This document shows positions 8,932 through 17,636 of a stretch of 64,000 bases of DNA, piece by piece. Numbering within the stretch: position 1 is the first letter of the stretch; every line of letters starts with the position of its first letter. The position numbers and the translations under genes are program-made. The notes under the pieces are model-generated. The model saw nothing but the letters and a program-made list of their open reading frames with translations, made no database searches and was not told the origin of the DNA. The stretch is taken from the NCBI RefSeq assembly GCF_001570865.1, contig NZ_BCSM01000005.1:62001-126000 (forward strand), written 5' to 3'. Source of the DNA: Rothia kristinae NBRC 15354 (GTDB taxonomy: Bacteria > Actinomycetota > Actinomycetes > Actinomycetales > Micrococcaceae).

Positions 8932-10314
8932 TCAGAAGGACTGGGCGCTGACCCGCACCAGCTTCTCGTTGGTGAACTCCTTCAGGCCCCACTCGGCCAG
9001 CTCCCGGCCGTAGCCGGAGCGGCCGATGCCGCCGAAGGGCAGGCCCGCCTGGGTCACCAGGTGCTCGTTGACGTGCACCATCCCGGCCTGCATCCGCCGG
9101 GCGAAGCGCTCGCCGCGCTCCAGGTCCTCGGTCCACACCGAGGCCTGCAACCCGTAGTCGGTGTGGTTGGCCAGGCGCAGCGCGTCCTCCTCGTCCTCGG
9201 CGCGGTAGACGATCACGGCGGGGCCGAACAGCTCGTTGCAGCCCAGGTCGGAATCCGGGTCCACGTCGGTGAGCAGGGCGGGGGACATGAACCAGCCGGG
9301 ACGCTCCAGCTTCTCGCCGCCGGTGCGCAGGGTCGCCCCGTTCCGCACGGCGTCGTGGATGCGCTGGACCACCTCGTCCCGGGCGGTTTCGGAGGACAGA
9401 GGCCCCATGTCGGCGTCGGGATCGTCCCAGGCGCCCACGCGGATCGCCTCCACGGCCTCCTGGGCCTTGGCGACGAACTCCTCGTAGAGCTCATCGACCA
9501 CGATGATCCGCTTGGGGGAGGTGCACACCTGCCCCTGCACGGAGGTGCGCAGCCCGACGGCGGTGCGCACCAGCGCGTCCAGGTCCGAGGTGTCCAGGAC
9601 GACGAACGGGTCGTTGCCGCCCAGCTCCAGCACGGACTTCTTGAGGTTCTTCCCCGCGTTTTGCGCGACGGAGGCCCCGGCCCGCTCGGAGCCGGTCAAG
9701 GAGACCCCGCGCACCCGGAAGTCCTCCAGCACGGCGGGGACGTCCTCGGTGTCCAGGTAGAGGTTGATGTAGGCGTCCTCCGGGATCCCGGCCTCGTGCA
9801 GGATCTCGGCGAAGGTGCCCGCGGACAGCGGGCAGATGGCCGCCTGCTTCATCAGGATCGTGTTGCCGATCAGCAGATTCGGGGCGGCGAAGCGGGCCAG
9901 CTGGTAGTAGGGGAAGTTCCACGGCATGATCCCCAGCAGCACGCCCAGCGGCTCGTGCTCCACGATGGTCTTCTGCGCGCCCTGCGGCTGCAGCTCGGTG
10001 GGCTCCAGGACGTCGGGGCCGTGCTCGGCGTACCAGCGGAAGATGGAGGCGACCAGCTGGACCTCCTGCAGGCCCTCGCTCTTGAGCTTGCCCATCTCCC
10101 GGCCGATGATCCCGGCCAGCTCCTCGGCGCGCTGCTCGAAGAGGTCTCCGACCTTCGCCAGGGCCTGGGCGCGCTGGGCGATCGGGGTGTCCCGCCAGGG
10201 GCCGACGGCGCGGTGCGCCCGCTCGATGATCTCGGGGATCTGCTGGGCGGGCAGGGAGTCGAAGGTCTGCTCGACCTCGCCGGTGGATGCGTTGGTCACT
10301 GCGAATTCGGTCAT
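8932..10314 (-). CDS. gabD: NAD(P)-dependent succinate-semialdehyde dehydrogenase
   Basis: Aldehyde dehydrogenase superfamily enzyme, 460 aa, that most likely oxidises succinate semialdehyde to succinate. Family signatures in order are the cofactor segment MPWNFPYYQLARF (about 137-149), general base Glu in VLELGGNDP near residue 230, nucleophile Cys in QVCTSPKR near 264, and NELFGPAV near 360. The short length and the MTEFAVTNASTGEVE start match the GabD/YneI type. A close paralogue is at 16254-17636, with a shared upstream pattern (GTTGACT then 7 nt then ATG). Substrate specificity is inferred; related semialdehydes are possible. Confidence 0.9.
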   Translation of the reverse strand: MTEFAVTNASTGEVEQTFDSLPAQQIPEIIERAHRAVGPWRDTPIAQRAQALAKVGDLFEQRAEELAGIIGREMGKLKSEGLQEVQLVASIFRWYAEHGPDVLEPTELQPQGAQKTIVEHEPLGVLLGIMPWNFPYYQLARFAAPNLLIGNTILMKQAAICPLSAGTFAEILHEAGIPEDAYINLYLDTEDVPAVLEDFRVRGVSLTGSERAGASVAQNAGKNLKKSVLELGGNDPFVVLDTSDLDALVRTAVGLRTSVQGQVCTSPKRIIVVDELYEEFVAKAQEAVEAIRVGAWDDPDADMGPLSSETARDEVVQRIHDAVRNGATLRTGGEKLERPGWFMSPALLTDVDPDSDLGCNELFGPAVIVYRAEDEEDALRLANHTDYGLQASVWTEDLERGERFARRMQAGMVHVNEHLVTQAGLPFGGIGRSGYGRELAEWGLKEFTNEKLVRVSAQSF

Positions 10315-10478
10315 AACCCCTAGTCAACGCCCCGGGTGGGGGACGGTTCCAGGGGTTTTCGCCGTGAGCATGACGACGGGGGCGTCATCCGGGGACGCCG
10401 GGCGTCATCGGCGCGTCGCACGGTCACATCCGCGTCCGTTCTTGGCTGGCCGCGGCTGCGCCGGTTCACTGGAGGGGT

Positions 10479-10588
10479 ACCTATCCAGAGCGGCCGAGAG
10501 ACCTGGCTCGACGACGCCGCAGCAACCACCCCCACCGCCCTCGTGCGACGGTTCGGGAACGGTGCTCCCGCCAGGACCGATGGATACC
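10479..10588 (+). promoter_or_regulatory. SAM-I (S-box) type riboswitch upstream of metF-metE
   Basis: The P1 stem is TATCC (10482-10486) with GGATA (10582-10586). The conserved S-box core reads CAGAG, then GAGAGACCTGGCTCGACGA and GCAGCAACC (10497-10527), followed by GGTGCTCCCGCCAGGACCGATGG, all in the canonical order. It should fold with SAM and lower expression of the downstream methionine genes. A GC hairpin (CAGCC/GGCTG, about 10594-10608) between the aptamer and the ribosome-binding site (AGAAGGAGG, 10635-10643) may be the expression platform. The rest of the 10315-10648 gap shows no gene. Confidence 0.88.
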
Positions 10589-10648
10589 GTGCGACAGCCG
10601 CCGCGGCTGCCGCGATCCGTCGGCCGATCCTGCAGAAGGAGGCCCGAC

Positions 10649-13600
10649 GTGCCCGCCGCACCCCCGACCCCGCCGCCCTCGCTGTCCTACGAGCTGTTCC
10701 CACCGCGCGGACCCGCCGCCCAGGACGCCCTGCTGCGCACCCTCGACGCCCTCGCCCCGACCGCCCCCGACTGGGTCTCCGTGACCACCGGGGTGCAGGC
10801 CGATCGACGCGCCGGCTGCCTGGACCTGCTGGAGCACCTGGTGCACCACACCCTGTACCGGCCGCTGGCCCACGTGATCGCCACGGGCAGCACCCGCGGG
10901 CAGCTGCGGGAGCTGACGGCCCGGATCCTGGACCTCGGGGTGCGCGGGATCCTCGCGCTGCGCGGGGACCGCCCGCCCGGATACGTCCCCGGGCCGGAGG
11001 AGCTGCCGTTCGCCCGCCACCTCGTGGAGCTGGTCCGGGAGGTGGAGCGGGAGCACCGCGCCCACCTGGGCGCTGGGCGCCTGGCGGTGGGGGTCGCGGC
11101 CTATCCCGTGCGCCACCCCGAATCCCCGAGCGCCCTGCACGACATCGAGGTGCTGCTGGCCAAGGAGCGGGCCGGGGCGGACTTCGCGATCACCCAGGTC
11201 TGCCAGGACCCGCAGGACCACGTCCGGCTGCGGGCCCGGGCCGAGCAGGCCGGGGTGGGGCTGCCGCTGGTGGCTGGGATCCTCCCGGTGACCAGCCTGC
11301 GCCGCTACGAGAGGGTCTGCGCCCTGGCCGGGCTGGCGGTGGACGAGCGCTTCGCCCACCGGCTGGAGACCGCCGAGAGCGAGACGCAGCGGCGTCGGGT
11401 GGGGGTGGCCCGGGCCCGGGAGCAGGCCCTGGCCGCCCTGGACGCCGGGGCGCCGGGACTGCACCTGTACACCTTCAACGAGCATCCCGCGGCCCTGGAG
11501 CTGCTGGAGGTCCTGGACCTGCCTCGCCCCTCCCCGACACCCCGCCCGCCCCTGGGCCGACGCAGTCCGGTGGAGACCGCCCGGGGGCACCTGCCCTCCG
11601 GCTCCCAGCCCCTGGACGAGGAGATCCTCCCGGCGCCTGCGACCGAGAAGCAGCGCCATCCGGGACCGCCGGACCGTTCCCGCCACCCCGATCACCCCCA
11701 CACCCGAGACACCCGATCCGATGCCGAGGAGACCACCGTGAGCACCACCGACCGCACCGCCGAGCACACTGAAGAGCGCGCCGCCCTGTCCACCCACGGG
11801 GCCGCCGCCTGCCCCTTCCCCGCCGCGACCGTCCTGGGATACCCGCGCATCGGGCCCCGCCGGGAGCTCAAGCGCGCCCTGGAGCGGCGCTGGTCCGGGA
11901 ACGCCGACGCCGCGGACCTGGCCAGCGAGGTCACCGCCCTGCGGGTGCGCACCGTCGCCCGGCTGCGCGAGCTGGGACTGACCGGCTGCTCCGCGATCCC
12001 CGCGTCCTTCGCCCTCTACGACCAGGTGCTCGACGCGATCGTCGCCACCGGGGCCGTGCCCGCCCGCTTCCACGACCTCGCCGACGAGCACGGGCGCCTG
12101 GACCGGGAGGCCTCCTTCGTCCTGGCCCGCGGCGACGCCGCCCGCGGGCCCCTGGAGATGACCAAGTGGTTCGACACCAACTACCACTACCTGGTCCCCG
12201 AGATCGGGCCGGAGACCCCCTTCGCGGCGAACCCCGAGGAGCTCAAGGGCCAGGTCTACGCCGGCACCTACTCCCCGGCCGACGCCGCGGCCCTGCGCCC
12301 GGCCGTCGTCGGACCCGTGACCTTCCTGCTGCTGGCCAAGCCCGAGGACTCCGCCCCGGCCGGCTACGACCCCCTGGACCGGCTGGAGGATCTGCTGCCG
12401 GTGTACTCCGAGCTGATCGCGGCCCTGGGGTGCACCGGGGTGCGCTGGGTGCAGCTGGAGGAGCCCGCCCTGGCGGCCGACCAGGACCGGGAGGATCTGC
12501 CGGAGCTGGTGGAGCGGGCCTACCGCGTGCTCTCCGAGGCCCGGGCGGCGGAGGACCCCGCCCTGCTGGTCACCACCGCCTACGGGGACGCCCGTGAGCT
12601 GCTGCCGGTGCTGGCCCGCACCGGGGTGGAGGCCGTGCACGCGGACCTGGCCTCCGGGCGGCGCGGACTGCGCCGGCTCACCGCCGAGCAGCTCGAGCCC
12701 TTCCTCGCCCCGCAGGCCCCGGCGCTGGTGGCCGGCGTCGTGGACGGGCGCAACGTGTGGCGCACGGACCTGCCGGGTGCCCTGGACCTGCTCGAGGAGC
12801 TGACCGAGGCCGGCGCCCGGGTGCGGGTGGGCACCTCCACCTCCCTGCTGCACGTGCCCCACGACCTCGAGGCCGAGACCGCCCTGCCCGGCCACGCCCG
12901 GAACCGCCTGGCCTTCGCGGACCAGAAGGTCCAGGAGGTGCTGATCCTCGCCCGCGGCCTGGCCGAGGGACGGGAGGCGATCGCCGAGGAGCTCGCGGCG
13001 GCCGAGGCGAGCCCGACCGAGCCGGGCCGCAGCACGCCCGACGCCGGGGACCCCGGGCTCGATGCGGCCGTGCGCTCGCGCGCCGCGGCCGTGGGCCCGC
13101 AGGACCGCCGGCGGGAGCCGGGACAGGTGCGTCGCGACATCCAGCGCGAACGCGGCGCGGCCGCGGGGCTGGGCCCGGTGCCGACCACGACCATCGGCTC
13201 CTTCCCGCAGACCCCCGAGATCCGGCGGGCCCGCGCCGAGCACCGGGCCGGGCGGCTGTCCGAGGAGGGCTACCGGGATCGGCTGCGGGAGGAGATCGCC
13301 CGGGTGATCCGGCTGCAGGAGGAGCTGGGGCTGGATGTGCTGGTGCACGGTGAGGCCGAGCGCAACGACATGGTCCAGTACTTCGCCGAGCACTTCGAGG
13401 GCTTCTCCGCGACCGAGCACGGCTGGGTGCAGTCCTACGGCTCTCGCTGCACCCGCCCCTCGATCCTGTGGGGCGACGTCTCCCGGAAGGGGGAGGGGGT
13501 GCGCGGGGAGGCCTTCACCGTCCCGTGGATCACCTGGGCGCAGTCGCTGACCGAGCGCCCGGTCAAGGGGATGCTCACCGGCCCGGTCACGATCCTCGCG

Positions 13601-14218
13601 TGGTCCTTCGTCCGGGAGGACCAGCCGCTGGCCGTCACCGCGGACCAGGTGGCCCTGGCCCTGCGCGATGAGGTGAGGGATCTGGAGGACGCCGGCATCG
13701 GCATCGTGCAGGTGGACGAGCCGGCCCTGCGCGAGCTGCTGCCGCTGCGTCGGGAGGACCACGCCGCGTACCTGGAGTGGGCGGTGCAGGCCTTCCGCCT
13801 GGCCACCTCCGGGGTGCGCGCCGAGACCCAGATCCACACGCACCTGTGCTACTCGGAGTTCGGGGAGGTGCTCGCGGCGATCGACGCGCTGGACGCCGAC
13901 GTCACCAGCGTGGAGGCGGCCCGCTCCCGGATGGAGCTGCTGGCCCCGCTGGCCGAGTCCGGTTTCGACCGCGGCATCGGGCCGGGGGTGTGGGACATCC
14001 ACTCCCCGCGGGTGCCCGCCGAGGAGGAGATCCGGGACCTGCTCCAGGCCGCGGCGCGGGTGGTGCCGGCGGATCGGCTGTGGGCCAACCCGGACTGCGG
14101 GCTGAAGACCCGGGGATACCCGGAGACCGAGGCCGCGCTGCGCCACCTGGTGGCCGCGGCCGCGGCGGTGCGTCGGGAGGCCGCGGCGCGTCCGGAGGAG
14201 GCGGTGCCGGTGGCCTGA
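10649..14218 (+). CDS. metE: MetF-MetE: 5,10-methylenetetrahydrofolate reductase fused in frame to cobalamin-independent methionine synthase
   Basis: One open frame of 1189 codons. Residues 1-290 are Met[32 protein letters not shown] and the typical end [19 protein letters not shown]; this domain makes 5-methyl-THF. A Pro/Asp/His-rich linker of about 70 residues follows with no stop codon. From about residue 364 the frame is Met[46 protein letters not shown], zinc ligands in [10 protein letters not shown] and NPDCGLKTR, and active site [11 protein letters not shown]; this domain methylates homocysteine. The GTG at 10649 has AGAAGGAGG. An internal GTG at 11738 with its own GAGGAG could yield separate MetE (826 aa). 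The upstream riboswitch controls both. Confidence 0.9.
11726..11740 (+). promoter_or_regulatory. Internal ribosome-binding site and GTG start for MetE
   Basis: GAGGAG (11726-11731), then 6 nt, then GTG (11738-11740), in frame with metF upstream. It marks the ancestral metE start ([10 protein letters not shown]). It suggests that free MetE is made as well as, or instead of, the read-through MetF-MetE polypeptide. Confidence 0.65.
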
Positions 14219-14225
14219 GCCCCGC

Positions 14226-14813
14226 TCAGTCCTCGGGCAGCAGCTCGACGATCCCCTCCAGGAACTCCGGGGTGTCCAGTCCCGGATCCACCGAGATCCG
14301 CACGAAGTAGCCGTGCATGAGAGCCAGCAGCCCGTCCGCGCGGCGCCGGGCCAGCTCCTCCGCGGGCCCGGCGTCGCCCTGACGGCGGGCCCAGGGCAGC
14401 AGGGCCCCGGCCATCAGGTCCCGGACCCGCCGCAGGTTGCCCCGGGCCAGCTGCGCGATCCGGGGGTCCAGGACGGCCTCGGACCACAGCTGCAGGAACA
14501 TGCGCATCAGGTCTCGGTCCACGACGTCGCGCGGCACGGTGCGGGCGATGCCCCGGGGGGTCACGGCCTGCTCCGCGCTCGCGGCCTCGGCCAGGATCCG
14601 CTCGGCCCGCTGAAGGGTGCGCTCGGCGGTGGCCTGCAGGATCTCGTCCTTGGAGGAGAAGTGGGAGTAGATGGATCCGGCCGAGAGTCCGGATTCGCGG
14701 ATGATCTCGGCCATCGAGGTTCCGGTGAAACCGCGGCGGCGGAAGCAGGCGGCGGCGTCGTCGAGGATCTGTCGGCGGCGGGCGTCTCTGGTCTCATCGG
14801 TCAGGCGCGGCAT
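14226..14813 (-). CDS. TetR/AcrR family transcriptional regulator
   Basis: A 195-aa dimeric repressor. Residues 10-58 form a TetR N-terminal DNA-binding domain ([19 protein letters not shown], then [21 protein letters not shown], then SSKDEIL). The C-terminal ligand domain ends [20 protein letters not shown] and has no recognisable ligand specificity. It diverges from the YhgE/Pip-like gene at 14881. Two related 14-bp palindromes occupy the gap, and one of them covers a TATTCT hexamer 6 nt from this ATG, so the protein probably represses itself as well as the divergent gene. The start is likely leaderless; no Shine-Dalgarno sequence is seen. Confidence 0.9.
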
Positions 14814-16253: not shown

Positions 16254-17636
16254 CTACAGCTCCTGCTCGTGCACCCGGAAGGTCTTCTCGTTGGTGAACT
16301 CGCGCAGGGCCCACTGGGCGCCCTCGCGGCCGTAGCCGGAGAGGTTGATCCCGCCGAAGGGGAACTCCGGACCGGACTCCATGTGCGCGTTGATCTGCAG
16401 CATGCCCACCTGCACCCGCTCGCCCACGCGGCGGGCCCGCTCCACATCCGTGGACCACACCGAGCCCATCAGGCCGTACGGGGTGTCGTTGGCGATGCGG
16501 ATCGCGTCCTCCTCGTCCTCGGCCTTGAAGATGTTGACGATCGGCCCGAACATCTCCCGGCAGCCCATGTCCGAATCCAGCGGGGCGTCGGTGATCAGGG
16601 CGGGGGACATGAACCAGCCCGGCCGGTCCAGCTTCTCGCCCCCGCAGTGCAGGGTCGCGCCGTCCTTCACGGCCTGCTGCACGGACTCCACGAGCTCATC
16701 CCGGGCGGATTCGGAGGACAGCGGGCCCATGTCCGTGTCCTCGGCGTCGTAGTCACCGACGACGGTGGCCTCCACGGCCTTCTTGGCCGCGGCGACGAAC
16801 TCGTCGTAGATGTCCTTCAGCACGATGAAGCGCTTGGGGGAGGTACACACCTGCCCGGCGTTGGCCAGGCGCAGGGACACGGCCTTCTTCGCCAGGGCCG
16901 CGACGTCGTCGGTGTCCAGCACGATCAGCGGGTCGTTGCCGCCCAGCTCCAGCACGGAGCGCTTCAGGTGCTTGGCCGCGATCCCGGCGACCGCGGCCCC
17001 GGCCTTCTCCGAGCCGGTCAGGGAGAAGCCCTTCACGCGCGGATCGCCCAGGACCACCTCGGCGTCGGAGGAGTCCATGTACACGTTGGTGTACACCCCC
17101 TCCGGCAGCCCGGCCTCCACCAGCAGATCCGCCAGGGCCTGGGAGGACTTCGGGCAGATCGCCGCCTGCTTCATGATGATCGCGTTGCCGACCATCAGGT
17201 TGGGCAGGGCGAAGCGGGCCAGCTGGTTGTACGGGAAGTTCCACGGCATGATGCTCAGCAGCACGCCCAGCGGGTCGTGCTTGACGACGGTGCTCACCCC
17301 GTCGGAGGGGTGCAGCTCGGTGGGGGCCAGGAACTCCTCCGCGTGCTCGGCGTACCAGCGGGCGGTCGCGGCGACCTTCTTCACCTCCGCGATGGTCTGC
17401 GGCTTCGGCTTGCCCATCTCGTGCCCGACGATCTCCGCCAGCTCCTCCTGGCGGGCCTCGAACAGGTCCGCGAAGCGGTTCAGGATCTCCCCGCGCTCGG
17501 CGTAGGACCGCTGGGACCAGTCCTGGTAGGCGGCGTCGGCGCGGTCGACCACGTCCTTCAGCTGCTCCTCGGTGAGCGAATCGAAGGTCTCCTCGACCTC
17601 GCCGGTGTTGGGATTGGTGACTGCGAAAGTGCTCAT
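16254..17636 (-). CDS. gabD: NAD(P)-dependent succinate-semialdehyde dehydrogenase, second copy
   Basis: A 460-aa aldehyde dehydrogenase, the same length as its paralogue at 8932-10314 and alignable throughout (MPWNFPYNQLARFALPNL, VLELGGNDP with the general-base Glu near 230, QVCTSPKR with the nucleophilic Cys near 262, CREMFGPIV near 356). It should also convert succinate semialdehyde to succinate. The two copies differ most in the N-terminal 120 residues. Keeping two such enzymes 6 kb apart suggests different substrates or different regulation rather than a recent duplication. It stands alone on the minus strand, 126 nt downstream of the YrhK-like gene. Confidence 0.9.
   Translation of the reverse strand: MSTFAVTNPNTGEVEETFDSLTEEQLKDVVDRADAAYQDWSQRSYAERGEILNRFADLFEARQEELAEIVGHEMGKPKPQTIAEVKKVAATARWYAEHAEEFLAPTELHPSDGVSTVVKHDPLGVLLSIMPWNFPYNQLARFALPNLMVGNAIIMKQAAICPKSSQALADLLVEAGLPEGVYTNVYMDSSDAEVVLGDPRVKGFSLTGSEKAGAAVAGIAAKHLKRSVLELGGNDPLIVLDTDDVAALAKKAVSLRLANAGQVCTSPKRFIVLKDIYDEFVAAAKKAVEATVVGDYDAEDTDMGPLSSESARDELVESVQQAVKDGATLHCGGEKLDRPGWFMSPALITDAPLDSDMGCREMFGPIVNIFKAEDEEDAIRIANDTPYGLMGSVWSTDVERARRVGERVQVGMLQINAHMESGPEFPFGGINLSGYGREGAQWALREFTNEKTFRVHEQEL

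Follow-up and report, generated by a model that had tools for sequence, protein, structure and literature searches.

A MetF-MetE fusion under a SAM riboswitch in Rothia and Kocuria, with a conserved internal metE start and a predicted second product

The closest described relative of the locus considered here is the operon of the Micrococcaceae in which metF and metE are separate genes, and in which the metF stop codon precedes the conserved metE sequence by 17 to 178 nt (22 loci). A second is the YitJ type (PRK08645), in which an MTHFR and a homocysteine methyltransferase are also found in one polypeptide. In the YitJ type, the MTHFR forms the second half of the chain, and its partner is another methyltransferase domain. 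Genes with an internal start that yield a long and a short in-frame product are reportedly exemplified by SpaO and HrcQ (PMC13059759, PMC8553256).

In the window (the whole stretch of 64,000 nucleotides that was analysed), the gene order and the RF00162 leader are those of the separate-gene operon (15 of 15 unfused Rothia loci and 7 of 7 unfused Kocuria loci), and a Shine-Dalgarno sequence and a start codon occupy the same place before metE, but no stop codon ends metF. The start codon of metE also differs, being ATG in the unfused spacers inspected and GTG in 12 of 13 fused genes. In contrast with the YitJ type, MetE here comes after the MTHFR, and the locus misses the PRK08645 cut-off (NF006396; 40.1 bits versus 453), with the MTHFR part alone being matched, at model positions 326-601 of 611. 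The difference from SpaO and HrcQ is that the short product would be the whole of an ancestral enzyme, initiated at what was once its own start. The features of the locus are the following.

10478..10586, + strand: SAM-I riboswitch aptamer (RF00162; Rfam cmscan, 54.9 bits, gathering score 44.4)
10634..10642, + strand: Shine-Dalgarno AGAAGGAGG of metF, read from the sequence
10649..14218, + strand: fused metF-metE open frame, GTG to TGA, 1189 aa; same frame in 13 genomes
10679..11512, + strand: MTHFR (MetF) domain, residues 11-288 (PF02219, 171 bits)
11540..11800, + strand: linker predicted to be disordered, residues 298-384, probably derived from the spacer that once separated the two genes (pLDDT below 50; poorly alignable, lengths in multiples of three)
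11726..11731, + strand: internal Shine-Dalgarno GAGGAG of metE (AGGAG kept in 13 of 13 fused genes)
11738..11740, + strand: internal metE start GTG, in frame with metF, for a predicted 826-aa MetE (conservation, low structure)
11825..12808, + strand: MetE N-terminal domain, residues 393-720 (PF08267, Meth_synt_1, 291.7 bits)
13181..14164, + strand: MetE catalytic domain, residues 845-1172 (PF01717, Meth_synt_2, 470.9 bits)

The first-pass annotation of this DNA had reported that metF runs into metE without a stop, behind a SAM riboswitch and with a GAGGAG and a GTG inside the frame, and all of this is borne out: 1189 codons are read without interruption from GTG 10649 to TGA 14218, the aptamer scores above its threshold, and the internal motif and start are where they had been placed. 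By Pfam, both enzymes are complete, the PF02219, PF08267, and PF01717 matches all lying far over their cut-offs (24 bits in the case of PF02219). The MetF part misses the NCBIfam equivalog TIGR00676 (195.5 bits versus 293.7), which concerns the strict equivalog and leaves its membership of the PF02219 family unaffected, while the MetE part passes NF003556 (960.2 bits versus 541) and narrowly misses TIGR01371 (887 bits versus 929.95). Residues E15, D107, and Q183 of the MetF part are invariant across six aligned fused rows, as are H1065, C1067, E1089, and C1150 of the MetE part; by E. coli MetF, the former are presumably the catalytic Glu and the flavin-site Asp and Gln, and the latter are taken to be the His, Cys, Glu, and Cys zinc ligands of MetE. 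Full-length MetE chains among the solved structures match residues ~388-1180, and MTHFR chains match within residues ~4-305.

The AlphaFold prediction (46 rows, mean pLDDT 85.1) shows two parts of high confidence, joined by a linker of low confidence in which pLDDT is below 50 at residues 298-380 and 382-384. Measured by this stretch, the linker is of about 87 residues, rather than the 70 or so first proposed, and the initial masses of 125 and 88 kDa become 129.0 kDa for the fused chain and 89.5 kDa for the product initiated at 11738. Two similar 460-aa frames, which by eye resemble aldehyde dehydrogenases, flank the fused gene on the opposite strand (8932-10314 and 16254-17636, both -), and a frame resembling a TetR regulator by eye (14226-14813, -) faces it, ending 7 bases past its end.

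An open frame of this type may be thought to reflect chance or a sequencing error, with the two genes being truly separate. Long chance frames are common at high G+C, and base shuffles leave the six Rothia linkers stop-free with P values of 0.35 to 0.70; one stop-free linker is unremarkable alone, given that the value for that of the window is 0.42. Against this, the frame is kept in 13 genomes of two genera (6 Rothia and 7 Kocuria) through 10 linker lengths, and the 13 genes form one clade. This makes the chance or error explanation extremely improbable, and the frameshift in the reads that had been raised as an alternative can be discarded, whereas the other alternative then offered, a genuine fusion, is supported by the recurrence of the stop-free frame. 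The absence of a stop is itself part of the definition of a fused gene, and counts as evidence only through the independent tree.

Among the 35 Rothia genomes searched, 6 carry the fused gene, 15 have complete separate genes, and in the other 14 there is at most a remnant or a weak match. The first-pass annotation had regarded relatives with separate genes as an argument against the fusion; such relatives exist, in the form of these 15 genomes, but do not refute it, because the gene trees place them apart from the fused clade. The 27 Kocuria genomes comprise 7 with the fused gene, 7 in which a near relative of this metF has a stop codon of its own, 12 in which another metF (~40% identity) takes its place, and 1 with no match at E 1e-20. 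The metF stop is retained in the remaining 22 Rothia and Kocuria operons of this type. In four Rothia (L031, L032, L034, and L035, from G027, G013, G028, and G026, respectively), there are short remnants of metF and/or metE, and the route seems to have decayed; L032 and L035, which were considered as fused genes, proved to be degraded remnants and were left out of all counts.

Further afield, the fusion was sought by combining PF02219 matches with the length of the open frame. A MetF match is present in 242 of the 395 genomes of the family, and among the matches listed, the 13 in frames of more than 1000 codons are these same 13. A wider scan of named genomes covered at least 80 loci, 65 of them with MetF upstream, of which 1 is fused, namely that of Kocuria subflava, which is identical to the G327 locus. 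The other 64, including 3 in which MetF is more than 700 bases away, encode MetF (PF02219) and MetE (PF08267 plus PF01717) as the separate proteins that are fused here. A sample of the order (149 genomes, 120 with a match) yielded no confirmed further fusion, the weak partial match G849 (frame 1018) being the only one to reach 1000 besides the window's own genome, which alone did so among the matches listed for a sample of the phylum (129 genomes, 112 with a match). Among the best matches listed for the class (394 genomes, of which 361 matched), a single frame, in G498, exceeds 1000; neither it nor the next frame, in G426, is accompanied by a MetE match within 5.5 to 5.6 kb, and both were rejected.

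The 13 fused rows are monophyletic among 65, with support of 100/99 in the MetF tree and 98 in a quick MetE tree, and five additional near rows place outside the fused clade. In the rpoB tree, by contrast, the fused Rothia join the unfused Rothia (100/99) and the fused Kocuria join the unfused Kocuria (82/75). This tree, rooted at the midpoint, includes 29 genomes, that is, the 6 and 7 with the fused gene, 8 of the 15 unfused Rothia, 6 of the 7 unfused Kocuria, and 2 others. Both genus groupings are rejected by the MetF and MetE sequences of 34 genomes (AU p 0.0165 and 3e-5), for groups that were chosen after the trees had been seen. These phylogenies suggest that there was probably a single fusion event, followed by the transfer of the fused gene between Rothia and Kocuria, although an ancient fusion that was later lost several times is a possible alternative history.

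The linkers of the 13 fused genes measure 92, 64, 37, 37, 41, 40, 52, 42, 38, 54, 68, 42, and 64 codons between the conserved blocks. These raw lengths depend on the ends of the matches, and 10 different lengths are still found after correction, which implies at least nine changes of length, every one of them in threes. The linkers are scarcely alignable over this range of 37 to 92 codons, and are without exception in frame. Upstream of the internal start, 431 codons contain no stop in frame 0, with 3 and 8 stops in the other frames, and the linker shows little codon-position signal (GC 0.73, 0.64, and 0.75). In unfused operons, metF and metE share a frame in 6 of 22 cases in Rothia and Kocuria, which is about the proportion expected by chance; among wider relatives, this holds for 17 of 64. 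The metF stop would have been lost while the two genes shared a frame in this way, so that the spacer, together with the ribosome-binding site of metE, would have become the disordered linker.

A linker predicted to be disordered, and free to vary in length, is also what would be expected of a site of cleavage, in which case the working enzymes would be a separate MetF and MetE released after translation. A molybdopterin synthase made as a fused protein has been reported to require cleavage for its activity (PMC4326299). By eye, however, the linkers share no motif other than the ribosome-binding site and the start, and post-translational cleavage is considered quite improbable.

This shared motif is the most regular element of the linkers. 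In all 13, AGGAG is followed by an in-frame start codon (GTG, with ATG once) at the place where the unfused operons hold the metE ribosome-binding site, with a spacing of 6 in 12 genes and 9 in one. When the linkers are aligned on the start, AGGAGAnC and GTGA are conserved and more distant bases are mostly variable. There are 18 sites combining AGGAG and a start across the 13 frames, and 13 of them are the metE-start site. Codon shuffles give probabilities of 0.004 to 0.11 per linker for the motif arising by chance (0.11 for that of the window), values that must not be multiplied, because the rows are related. In each of the 13 genes, the 51-base segment at the internal start has less structure than 97-100% of the same-frame segments, and the averaged structure profile dips much as it does at the starts of 13 unfused metE genes (part of the 22). 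Base composition accounts for part of this low structure, with a mean z of 0.96 against shuffles and two of the 13 at or below zero.

A Shine-Dalgarno-like stretch within a gene may slow ribosomes. The internal site could, then, be a relic, or a place where ribosomes pause so that MetF can fold before MetE is made, with the fused chain alone being produced; the fused frame itself is, after all, kept in all 13 genomes. A relic, however, should decay in linkers that can barely be aligned, whereas the AGGAG, the start codon, and the A that follows it are all kept, the spacing is nearly constant, and the region is as unstructured as genuine metE starts. The production of the fused chain alone is thus held to be unlikely. 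Read from sequence, a conserved second in-frame start with its own Shine-Dalgarno is carried by all 13 genes, as is looked for in a gene with two predicted products. The earlier suggestion that 11738 could also give MetE alone is therefore upheld as regards the site, with its conservation and low structure, while the short product stands as a prediction: a free MetE of 90 kDa is probably also made from 11738.

The SAM aptamer lies upstream of every locus tested, 13 fused and 22 unfused. In these 35 leaders (10587-10648 in the window), the stretch from the aptamer to the conserved metF sequence contains no run of more than four T, and the Shine-Dalgarno of metF is often paired in predicted folds, values that are indicative, given that starts are misassigned in, for example, L150, L151, L156, and L022. 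The lack of a long T-run and the pairing of this Shine-Dalgarno make it possible that the riboswitch acts on translation, which would leave the internal start free. A split form of control can be imagined, in which the riboswitch hides the metF ribosome-binding site only, with SAM turning the fused chain off and leaving the internal MetE on, with the fused MetF handing methyl-folate directly to MetE; this is offered tentatively, as a rather doubtful extension.

The preferred reading, which is considered fairly probable, is a genuine metF-metE fusion in a SAM-riboswitch operon, giving a 129-kDa chain plus a 90-kDa MetE from the retained internal site; its origin, the production of both products, and its purpose are inferred. 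Initiation at 10649 would yield the long MetF-MetE chain, which would be the sole route to this MetF, barring frameshifting or cleavage, while ribosomes loading at the internal site would make MetE alone. The outcome would be a MetE tethered to its supplier of methyl-folate, plus a surplus of free MetE. In E. coli, MetE is slow and abundant. An enzyme that is slow, and needed in excess, plausibly makes free MetE useful beside a one-to-one fusion. The coupling of the production of 5-methyl-THF to its use by the fused chain, as proposed at the outset, is a conjecture.

Given that the single PF02219 match in the genome lies within the fusion (controls detected in 11 of 14), the long chain must supply the 5-methyl-THF, unless a flavin-independent MTHFR is present. 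The MetH activation domain had no match in the genome (controls detected in 7 of 14). A second, weak match to the catalytic half of MetE (E 1.9e-8) lies outside the window, at G000:C8:98131-98421, within a 416-codon frame, and the matched region is interrupted by one stop; it may represent a core methionine synthase or some other protein of the family.

The joining of MetF and MetE appears to be undescribed so far. No paper on such a fusion was found among the titles and abstract openings listed from the open-access literature searched, in the full texts of which the exact phrase "MetF-MetE fusion" is absent. The words "fusion" and "fused" do not occur in the main text of PMC7857596, and the passages retrieved from open-access papers containing metF, metE, and fused make no mention of it.

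The two folate steps that complete the synthesis of methionine are joined here in one chain, and the relatives suggest the route by which this may have come about, with a stop being lost, a spacer becoming a linker, and an old start being retained. The fusion would be overlooked wherever automatic annotation cut the chain down to a single domain. Rothia and Kocuria thus provide a natural test of whether the joining of MetF and MetE alters flux, and of why a fused gene would keep the second enzyme's own start.
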